64,000 bases of DNA from the NCBI RefSeq assembly GCF_000011005.1, contig NC_013665.1, positions 1,527,501 to 1,591,500 of the forward strand, read 5' to 3'. Positions 6,656 to 10,060 of the stretch are shown here, piece by piece. The position numbers and the translations under genes were made by a program. A model generated the notes under the pieces. It was not told the origin of the DNA. It searched no databases and saw only the letters and a list, made by a program, of their open reading frames with translations. The DNA is from Methanocella paludicola SANAE. GTDB taxonomy: Archaea; Halobacteriota; Methanocellia; Methanocellales; Methanocellaceae. The first letter of the stretch is position 1, and each line of letters opens with the position of its first letter.

Positions 6656-7594
6656 ATGAAATGCGTCGTAACGGGCGGGGCAGGGTTTATCGGCAGCCAC
6701 CTGACGGACAGGCTGCTGGCGATGGGCCATGATGTGACGGTCATCGATAACCTTTCCGGTGGCCGGCTGGAGTTCATCGAAGGCCACTTCCCCGATGACC
6801 GCTTTAATTTTATCAAGAAGGACATTTCGGGCGACGGAGCCATAAAGGAATTGAAAGGGGCCGATATTGTCTATCACCTGGCCGCTAATCCCGACGTGAA
6901 GCTGGGAGCCGAAAATACGAAAGTACACTTGAAGCAGAACATCATCGTCACGTATAACGTGCTCGAGTCCATGCGAGAGCTCGGCGTAAAGAATATTGCC
7001 TTTACGTCCACGTCGACCGTGTATGGTGAGGCGTCCGTTGTGCCGACGCCCGAAAATTACGGGCCGCTCATGCCCATATCGCTTTACGGCGCGTCGAAAC
7101 TTTCCTGCGAGGCGCTCATCAGCTCCTACTGCCACACGTTCGGCATGGCCTCGTGGCTCTACCGCTTTGCCAACATCATCGGCGACCGCAGCACCCACGG
7201 CGTCATCTTTGATTTCATCCAAAAACTCAAAAAGGACCCGGCGAAGCTGACCATCCTCGGCGACGGCCGGCAGTCAAAGTCCTACCTGCACGTCGGGGAT
7301 TGCGTGGACGCGATGCTCTTCGCCGTGGAAAAGGAGCACGGCCCGGTGAACATCGTAAATATCGGCTCGGAAGATCGCATCGATGTCACTGCCATTGCGC
7401 GGATCGTAATAGAAGAGATGGGCCTGAACGGCGTTAAGCTCGAATATACCGGCGGCACCCGGGGCTGGGCGGGCGACGTGCCCTTCATGGGCCTCTCCAT
7501 CGAGAGGATGAAGTCGCTTGGCTGGAAGCCGGAGCATAATTCCGAAGAGAGCGTGCGCATGTGTGTGCGTTCGCTGTTAAGTAAAAAGGCGTAG
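6656..7594 (+). CDS. NAD-dependent sugar epimerase/dehydratase (extended SDR, GalE-like)
   Basis: A 312-residue extended short-chain dehydrogenase/reductase acting on nucleotide sugars, most like UDP-glucose 4-epimerases. The NAD-binding GGAGFIG is at residues 7-13, VIDNLSGG follows the second strand, YHLAA is near 73-77, and the catalytic Tyr144-x3-Lys148 sits in SLYGASK. The C-terminal substrate region contains GDGRQSKSYLHVGDC. Length is normal. It begins a rightward set with the RIO1 kinase gene two bases downstream. The nucleotide-sugar substrate cannot be fixed from sequence. Confidence 0.88.
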   Translation: MKCVVTGGAGFIGSHLTDRLLAMGHDVTVIDNLSGGRLEFIEGHFPDDRFNFIKKDISGDGAIKELKGADIVYHLAANPDVKLGAENTKVHLKQNIIVTYNVLESMRELGVKNIAFTSTSTVYGEASVVPTPENYGPLMPISLYGASKLSCEALISSYCHTFGMASWLYRFANIIGDRSTHGVIFDFIQKLKKDPAKLTILGDGRQSKSYLHVGDCVDAMLFAVEKEHGPVNIVNIGSEDRIDVTAIARIVIEEMGLNGVKLEYTGGTRGWAGDVPFMGLSIERMKSLGWKPEHNSEESVRMCVRSLLSKKA

Positions 7595-8372: not shown

Positions 8373-8915
8373 ATGCAAGAGCACATCAAGGTCCCGCAGG
8401 ACAGGATCGGCGCCATCATCGGCGTCGAGGGGAACATCAAAAAGATCATCGAGGAGAAGACAGGCGCGACGGTGGACGTCGACAGCGAGAGCGGGACCGT
8501 GGTCATCGGGACCGAGGCGGACGCCTTTAAGGCGCTGAAGGCCGCCGAGGTCATCAAGGCAGTAGCCCGCGGGTTCAGCCCCGAGAAAGCCCTCAAGCTT
8601 CTCGAGAACGAGGACCTGGTCCTGGACGTCATCGACCTGTCGAACCTGACCGATTCGCCGTCAGACCTTAAGCGGCTTAAGGGACGCATCATCGGGAGGA
8701 ACGGCAAGACCCGCGAGGTCATCGAGCAGATGTCGGGCGCCCGGGTCTCCGTCTATGGTAAGACGATAAGCATCATCGGCGATTCGGAGCAGCTTGCCAC
8801 GGTGCGCGAGGCTTTGAACATGCTCATCGACGGCGCGCCTCACGGAGCCGTATACGGGTTCCTGGAAAAGCGCAGGCGCGAGCTAAAAAGAACTCAGATG
8901 GATTCGATATTTTAG
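8373..8915 (+). CDS. KH-domain RNA-binding protein, Pno1/Dim2-like
   Basis: A 180-residue protein with two KH domains, related to Pno1/Dim2, which binds the 3' end of pre-16S/18S rRNA. KH1 begins MQEHIKVPQDRIGAIIGVEG, with the GxxG-type loop GVEG. KH2 has LKGRIIGRNGKTREVIEQMS, with the loop GRNG near residues 108-111. I use the ATG at 8373. A TTG at 8364 overlapping the Rio1 stop is the alternative start. Co-transcription with Rio1 fits a shared role in 30S assembly. Confidence 0.92.
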   Translation: MQEHIKVPQDRIGAIIGVEGNIKKIIEEKTGATVDVDSESGTVVIGTEADAFKALKAAEVIKAVARGFSPEKALKLLENEDLVLDVIDLSNLTDSPSDLKRLKGRIIGRNGKTREVIEQMSGARVSVYGKTISIIGDSEQLATVREALNMLIDGAPHGAVYGFLEKRRRELKRTQMDSIF

Positions 8916-8927
8916 AAGTAATGTTAT

Positions 8928-8963
8928 GGAGGGGCCGAAGGGCCCCTCCGCAAATTATTTTTA
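8928..8963. terminator. Hairpin terminator between KH gene and small peptide gene
   Basis: Perfect 9-base stem GGAGGGGCC (8928-8936) / GGCCCCTCC (8941-8949) with a GAAG loop, followed on the plus strand by a T-rich stretch. It lies 13 bases after the KH gene stop. The same hairpin also lies beyond the minus-strand peptide gene and may serve both. Confidence 0.75.
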
Positions 8964-8999
8964 CTTGGGTTTCTTGCCGCAGCCGCAGGTGTCGCACAT
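8961..8999 (-). CDS. Tiny Cys-rich peptide gene (12 residues)
   Basis: This minus-strand reading frame encodes MCDTCGCGKKPK and stops with TAA. It is far shorter than gene finders allow, yet it has full gene signals: a GGAGGTG Shine-Dalgarno sequence (9007-9013) seven bases ahead of the ATG, a TATA-like TTTTATAC (9044-9052) about 45 bases upstream, an upstream T-run that would end the previous transcript, and a hairpin just after the stop. The CxxCGCG core resembles the N-terminal nickel-binding motif of HypB proteins, so metal binding is a reasonable guess. No function is known to me. Confidence 0.6.
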   Translation of the reverse strand: MCDTCGCGKKPK

Positions 9000-9043
9000 T
9001 CGCCTTCACCTCCCGGTAAAGTGATCGGGATTCTATAATACCA

Positions 9044-9052
9044 GTATAAAAA
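9044..9052 (-). promoter_or_regulatory. TATA-like element of the 12-residue peptide gene
   Basis: Minus-strand TTTTATAC about 45 bases before the ATG at 8999. A start near 9022 would give a leader of about 22 bases that contains the GGAGGTG ribosome-binding site. Confidence 0.45.
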
Positions 9053-9127: not shown

Positions 9128-9898
9128 TCAGACGATGTACTTGTCTTCCGCCGTAAATTCCTTGGGGCCGGGCTGTTGCTGCTGCTCCAGCTCTTTGATC
9201 TTAGTGATGATCTTCTCGATCTCCGCCGCCCTGGCCTCGAGCTCTTTCATGTCGACCGTCAGGTTCATCGCTTTTGATAGAACGCCGAGGACTGCCTGGG
9301 CGCTCTTGGGGTCCACGAGGTATCCGGATGTCTCGCCCATAAGACAGACCGCTTCGATGCCCCGGAGCTCGCCCAATCCGAGTATCAGGCCGGAGGCGCC
9401 GATGATGCCGCCGGACAGCTCGCCCTCGTTGAATATGGCGCCGTAGGACTTGACCTCGTCGATGATGTCGGCCTTATTCGTCGCGTAGAGGACGTGCGGG
9501 ACTTCGATAAGCTTCCCGGTGCCGTATCCGCCTAAAGTGTAAATGCGGCGCGCCTTGAACTTTTCCGCGATGTCGAGGTATATCCCCGCGAGCTCATAGT
9601 GGCCCTCGTTGGTCACGCTCTGGGAATCGCCGACCAGGATGAGCATGTCGGCGGCCTTCTCGTCGCCGTTCCAGGCATAGACCTCGTTGCTGACCAGCTT
9701 CGTGGTCCCGTCAGGGTTCACGTTAACTTGAGGCGGAAACTGGGGTGAAAAGATCTCCATGATCTTCTCGGCCTTTAGCTCTCCGATAAGGTGTTCGGCT
9801 ACAAGTTTACCGATCAGTCCGATGCCCGGCAGCCCGACGACCATTACGGGCCGGTCCAGGGCCTTTTCGCCGTATTCGACGACGGTTGTCTCGTTCAT
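9128..9898 (-). CDS. PAC2-family proteasome assembly chaperone homologue
   Basis: A 256-residue member of the PAC2 family (archaeal relatives of eukaryotic proteasome assembly chaperone 2). The N-terminal MVVGLPGIGLIGKLVAEHLI, the middle LILVGDSQSV and TLGGYGTGKL, and GGIIGASGLILGLGELRGIEAVCLMGETSGYLVDP are the conserved blocks. The C-terminus is a predicted coiled coil (about residues 215-245) ending in a Gln-rich tail. It follows nop10 by nine bases at the end of a translation-related operon. The gene is clearly real; the chaperone role is by homology only. Confidence 0.88.
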   Translation of the reverse strand: MNETTVVEYGEKALDRPVMVVGLPGIGLIGKLVAEHLIGELKAEKIMEIFSPQFPPQVNVNPDGTTKLVSNEVYAWNGDEKAADMLILVGDSQSVTNEGHYELAGIYLDIAEKFKARRIYTLGGYGTGKLIEVPHVLYATNKADIIDEVKSYGAIFNEGELSGGIIGASGLILGLGELRGIEAVCLMGETSGYLVDPKSAQAVLGVLSKAMNLTVDMKELEARAAEIEKIITKIKELEQQQQPGPKEFTAEDKYIV

Positions 9899-9907
9899 AG
9901 TAAAAAG

Positions 9908-10060
9908 TCACTTCTTTGCGAGGCGCCGGTACTTGCCGTAGGCGTCCAAAGGAGAATATCTCGCCGGGACGGGATTTATAGTCTTCCCTCCGCATTTCGG
10001 GCATGCACTATTAAACGTATATGTGCCGCACTGCGCACACTTCTTCATCTTGGTCTTCAT
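9908..10060 (-). CDS. nop10: H/ACA ribonucleoprotein Nop10
   Basis: Nop10 is a small zinc-binding core protein of the H/ACA pseudouridylation RNP. The 50-residue product starts MKTKMKKCAQCGTYTFNSAC and has CxxC pairs at Cys8/Cys11 and Cys20/Cys23, then PVPARYSPLDAYGKYRRLAK, the conserved region that contacts Cbf5. It follows the aIF2-alpha gene by 18 bases and precedes the PAC2 gene, a conserved archaeal order. A second ATG at 10048 would give a slightly shorter protein. Confidence 0.93.
   Translation of the reverse strand: MKTKMKKCAQCGTYTFNSACPKCGGKTINPVPARYSPLDAYGKYRRLAKK

Follow-up and report, generated by a model that had tools for sequence, protein, structure and literature searches.

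Can twelve codons make a gene of their own? The question is raised by a minus-strand open reading frame (ORF) of Methanocella paludicola SANAE, which encodes the peptide MCDTCGCGKKPK and lies in a window of 64,000 nucleotides (G000:C1:1527501-1591500, in an assembly of 2,957,635 bases). A sequence-only reading had placed a dedicated gene for a small cysteine peptide at 8961-9052. The gene itself was recovered, but its extent had to be revised, as that range includes the promoter and the coding part covers 8961-8999, with the codons ATG TGC GAC ACC TGC GGC TGC GGC AAG AAA CCC AAG TAA. The micro-gene and its signals are located as follows (window positions).

8961..8999, minus strand: micro-gene, 12 codons plus stop, identified by ORF reading, product MCDTCGCGKKPK
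9007..9013, minus strand: Shine-Dalgarno sequence GGAGGTG, 7 nucleotides 5' of the micro-gene ATG; the four Methanocellales genomes all have GGAGGTG starting between -13 and -15
9045..9050, minus strand: TATA-like box TTTATA, -51 to -46 from the micro-gene ATG
8928..8949, unstranded: GC-rich hairpin GGAGGGGCC-CTTC-GGCCCCTCC between the convergent genes, from a computed fold

Conservation in relatives, which the sequence-only reading had left to be checked, was clear. The exact peptide is encoded at the same locus in all four Methanocellales genomes examined, belonging to three genera. Aligned from the ATG, the four genomes had a mean pairwise identity of 92% within the ORF and 25-28% in the flanks on either side. 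Five columns of the ORF vary, all of them synonymous third positions. With random single-base changes, the chance of five silent changes is ~2e-4, or 3e-3 if only transitions are considered; these probabilities are a guide and no strict test, since the four sequences are related by descent. The identical peptide, the high ORF and low flank identity and the silent-only variation thus point to coding conservation and not to chance. Judged by this comparison of sequences, the micro-gene is under purifying selection on its amino acids, with start, cysteines, tail and stop conserved. Both amino-acid-level conservation and codon periodicity, by which a protein-coding gene is recognized, were found. 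The open-licence literature yielded no Ribo-seq (ribosome profiling) or peptide study of Methanocella.

The predicted expression signals were likewise borne out: a TATA-like element, a strong Shine-Dalgarno sequence and a downstream hairpin, each as listed above. GGAGGTG 3-9 nucleotides before an ATG occurs only twice in the window, at the micro-gene and at one long gene. TATA-like boxes are present at about -45 in two relatives (G001 and G002), while none is clear in G003; the position of the TTTATA box would predict a short leader on the micro-gene transcript. The hairpin is likely a terminator. Because it is nearly palindromic and followed by a T-rich stretch on the plus strand only, it probably also terminates the convergent KH-domain gene. 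The Rfam search around the locus gave nothing close to a gathering score. Start, cysteines, ribosome-binding site and stop are conserved in every relative examined, and a dedicated gene, as first proposed, is strongly supported.

Similar micro-genes were also identified in other phyla, so that the earlier view of an archaeal gene holds for its occurrence but not as a restriction to archaea. A scan of a genome contig collection for MCxxCGCG followed by KK returned ten matches, against a rough random-sequence expectation of about one in that collection. One of these was a true HypB and one came from Methanocella; the remaining eight were further short ORFs. The scan revealed MCKTCGCGKK and MCQTCGCGKK in Deltaproteobacteria metagenome-assembled genomes (MAGs), MCGSCGCGKKKPKK or MCGTCGCGKKKPKK in three Omnitrophota, and MCKNCGCGKKKKK and MCSTCGCGKKKKPAKK in two Patescibacteria, the last being the weaker cases. 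Within the class that contains Deltaproteobacteria bacterium CSP1-8, MC[KEQ]TCGCG(G)KK with a stop directly after it is carried by 10 of 26 genomes, including MCKTCGCGGKK, and a pattern without a fixed start gave ten matches beginning at Cys2 and one that is MCNCKTCGCGGKK. A search based on the locus at which the micro-gene and a thioredoxin-reductase-like gene (Pyr_redox_2 domain, CATC active-site motif) diverge identified orthologues at eight of 22 such loci, among them MCDPCACGGKK and MCKSCGCSGKK; several other carriers in the class have the micro-gene away from this locus. Identity among the eight orthologues was 0.84, 0.96 and 0.58 at codon positions 1, 2 and 3, and 0.27 in the upstream flank. 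The overall pattern in the class is MC[KEQD][TSP]C[GA]C[GS](G)KK before the stop, and the changing neighbour residues indicate that Cys2, Cys5, Cys7 and the terminal lysines are what is kept.

In the three Omnitrophota, a ribonucleotide reductase large-subunit gene is located on the same strand ~170-190 nucleotides downstream; this label and that of the thioredoxin-reductase-like gene are based on Pfam domains and motifs. An inverted repeat, possibly a terminator or attenuator, lies between the micro-gene and the reductase gene (L029, L032 and L033; GCAAAAGCCCCCTA ... TAGGGGGTTTTTGC in L033). No further carrier turned up among 239 genomes from the phylum to which the Falkowbacteria match belongs (Patescibacteria), and none was confirmed in the Omnitrophota sample, where one other match was discarded for a stop codon right after MC. 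Sampling of these two phyla thus gave almost only the known carriers, which suggests sporadic occurrence there. As the searches used near-exact motifs, the family is probably undercounted.

Phages carry the motif as well. In IMG/VR, at least 120 stretches have MCxxCGCG and then KK, mostly within proteins of 26-75 residues that are often paired with a second MCxxCGC protein. Of 120 matches listed for a start-free pattern, 117 are preceded by ATG, two by GTG and one by neither. The motif thus belongs at the N-terminus, 119 of the 120 listed matches standing directly after a start codon. Versions of 16 residues, MCKSCGCGKKHGKKRK and MCKRCGCGKKHKKGKK, are found near terminase genes in three contigs (L078, L207 and L208); the one gene examined sits between the terminase small-subunit and large-subunit genes. 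The 16-residue genes of L078 and L208 end in TAATG, in which their stop overlaps the start of the next gene. The longer family, MCxxCGCGKKKG[EQ]xG[YF]GKG.. (L067-L186 and L313-L335; e.g., L083, L093 and L104), has lysine-rich or EF-hand-like tails, and its members are often paired with MCATCGCGKPKDKHGMK.. proteins, apparently within head/tail gene modules. PHROGs contained no significant family for the phage cysteine proteins, and a long version had no match among named phages.

The likeness to the HypB N-terminus that had been noted from the sequence proved exact in position, with Cys2, Cys5 and Cys7 counted from the start. The high-affinity site of Escherichia coli HypB is Ni(S)3(NH2), formed by the same three cysteines and the N-terminal amine, with a sub-picomolar dissociation constant (PMC7055735); this review also cites a study of an isolated HypB peptide. 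With MCDTCGCG in all four Methanocellales genomes, the micro-peptide shares both the cysteine positions and MCxxCGCG at the very N-terminus with the HypB nickel motif (NCBIfam HypB_prefix_1 NF053667; TIGR00073), to which its longer relatives give weak, sub-threshold matches. Unlike HypB, the micro-peptide is free, 10-16 residues long and, in bacteria, mostly encoded in genomes that lack HypB; its gene in Methanocella ends in TAA after 12 codons, leaving no place for the G3E-type GTPase domain. HypB scored over the family cut-off in 8 of 19 carriers overall and in 4 of the 15 bacterial ones. Linkage to or co-occurrence with hydrogenase maturation is not supported by these counts, and the gene-neighbourhood comparison placed no hyp genes next to the micro-gene. 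The HypB proteins of Methanocellales begin without the N-terminal cysteine motif (two sequences read), and the free peptide could thus in principle supply it there.

The surroundings of the micro-gene in the window are of a different kind, as the following genes show.

8373..8915, plus strand: KH-domain gene (Pno1/Krr1-like; Pfam KH_1 and KH_PNO1_2nd), convergent with the micro-gene
Before the KH gene: putative RIO1-type kinase gene, labelled from its sequence alone
9128..9898, minus strand: PAC2-family gene (Pfam PF09754, E 5.6e-53), upstream of the micro-gene and its syntenic anchor
9908..10060, minus strand: NOP10 gene (Pfam PF04135), upstream, in a run of aIF2-alpha, NOP10 and PAC2

The place of the micro-gene after the PAC2 gene and before the convergent KH/Pno1-like gene is kept in Methanocellales. 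The KH gene is the next downstream gene, and convergent, in three of the four genomes; one genome has an additional gene between. No micro-gene was seen 3' of PAC2 in 26 genomes from other Halobacteriota families.

What, then, might the peptide do? A metal chelator or chaperone, as put forward from the sequence, is plausible, and we give slightly less than even credence to a translated micro-gene whose product, acting in trans, is a small buffer or relay for metal. Methionine aminopeptidase would remove Met1 and expose an N-terminal Cys2, whose free amine, together with the thiolates of Cys2, Cys5 and Cys7, could coordinate a single soft or borderline metal ion, either Ni2+, the ion of HypB, or instead Zn2+ or Cu+. 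Solubility and weak tethering to polyanions such as RNA, DNA, ribosomes or the membrane may come from the tail with its lysines, while the free peptide would act as the buffer or relay. Across the micro-genes, the cysteine triad is invariant while other residues vary. Several observations weigh against a role in metal handling. No metal-related genes are adjacent, and the neighbourhoods point elsewhere, to ribosome biogenesis in Methanocellales and to a thioredoxin-reductase-like protein and ribonucleotide reductase in bacteria. Moreover, 11 of the 15 bacterial carriers are without HypB over the cut-off, although several are MAGs and may be incomplete; a purely hydrogenase-linked role is therefore unlikely, and we favour a general buffer or relay for metal rather than a hydrogenase factor.

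The bacterial neighbours would suit a dithiol redox peptide, in which CxxC cycles between thiol and disulfide, is reduced by thioredoxin reductase and serves ribonucleotide reductase or other thiol enzymes. In its favour are the divergence from the thioredoxin-reductase-like gene at eight of 22 loci examined in one bacterial class and the downstream ribonucleotide reductase gene in the three Omnitrophota. Against it, several carriers of that class have the micro-gene elsewhere, and redox genes are missing from the Methanocellales and phage neighbourhoods. As the invariant third cysteine is superfluous for a redox pair and the strict N-terminal placement is left without explanation, we consider this function unlikely. 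We are similarly doubtful of a zinc-knuckle micro-protein associated with nucleic acid or the ribosome, whose cysteine head holds zinc and whose lysine tail binds RNA or DNA. Lysine-rich tails are found everywhere, a Methanocellales paralogue (MCKSCGCATKPKKAAAKKAPAKKAAPKKK) has a histone-H1-like tail, the window gene is flanked by aIF2-alpha/NOP10 and Pno1/RIO1-type genes, and the phage versions sit among packaging and head-tail genes, all of which argues for such binding; yet there is just one CxxCG unit with three cysteines, tails can be as short as KK or GKK, and the bacterial neighbourhoods are not ribosomal. Both of these functions are compatible with a metal-binding head, and the purpose is what differs. 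A regulatory leader peptide (an attenuator upstream ORF acting only in cis on the downstream gene) is very improbable: a short ORF followed by a terminator, and the same-strand gene downstream in Omnitrophota, would fit, but conservation at codon positions 1 and 2 shows that the amino acids themselves are kept. For the window gene, this explanation is contradicted by the gene order, as the convergent downstream gene in three of the four Methanocellales leaves nothing to regulate in cis. Finally, a chance ORF inside a non-coding element (a small RNA or intergenic noise) is barely conceivable. Twelve codons are short, and a relaxed pattern run over 394 Halobacteriota genomes also matched short MCxxCxC ORFs in other archaea; outside Methanocellales, however, these were chance-like fragments, and among the matches only those of Methanocellales combine a strong ribosome-binding site with the Cys-Lys layout. 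With the patterns used, the micro-gene was not found in Halobacteriota outside this order. The silent-only variation and unalignable flanks in Methanocellales, along with the codon periodicity of the eight bacterial orthologues, contradict a chance origin.

Some known small cysteine proteins bear comparison with the micro-peptide. In Haloferax, zinc-finger micro-proteins of the C(P)XCG type (PMC11241148) are likewise archaeal, very small and built on a CxxCG knuckle, whereas the micro-peptide has one CxxCG motif in 12 residues. sORF_06 of Methanosarcina mazei, a standalone, previously unannotated cysteine protein of a methanogen, has been shown to be translated; it differs in having four clustered cysteines (PMC11456600). 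Metallothioneins and other metal-buffer peptides are similarly small, cysteine-rich and presumed to bind metal, but the micro-peptide has only three cysteines, in a fixed N-terminal geometry. We know of no sequence similarity between it and metallothioneins.

Annotation normally passes over genes of 10-16 codons, a size at which standard gene finders do not search. For this gene of 12 codons, selection acting on individual amino acids is demonstrable in archaea and, independently, in bacteria. The peptide is short enough for direct synthesis and testing and, if it does bind metal like its HypB counterpart, would rank among the smallest proteins that a genome dedicates to metal handling. More speculatively, and with considerable reserve, MCxxCGC may be a portable N-terminal metal-binding head, present in HypB and in longer phage and methanogen proteins and, in archaea, bacteria and phages, also encoded by itself in micro-genes. 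Dedicated metal peptides of 10-16 residues would then form an overlooked class, too small for gene finders to register. No description of the free micro-gene, its conservation, its spread or its motif strings was found in the open-licence literature. A recent intergenic small-ORF survey began at 15 codons (PMC11188072). One small-ORF catalogue predicted ORFs from 30 nucleotides (PMC11364881), and some members may thus already sit there unnamed.

Other proteins with the same head were also observed. The histone-H1-like paralogue has 29 residues (L310/L336; G003 contig C171, near 7247-7285), and its gene has the site GGAGGTGA and is adjoined by a DnaJ-like gene. A second small family, MCISCGCGMPxDxHNNPxxIT.. 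(52-58 residues), has three copies in the genome of the window, outside the window itself (L001, L006 and L011), and is also present in G002, G003, G021 and G896; it matched no Pfam or NCBIfam family over cut-off. Another use of the N-terminal head is seen in L018, an MCATCGCG.. protein of 52 residues whose C-terminal half resembles a zinc ribbon and gives weak matches to HypA and Zn-ribbon families.
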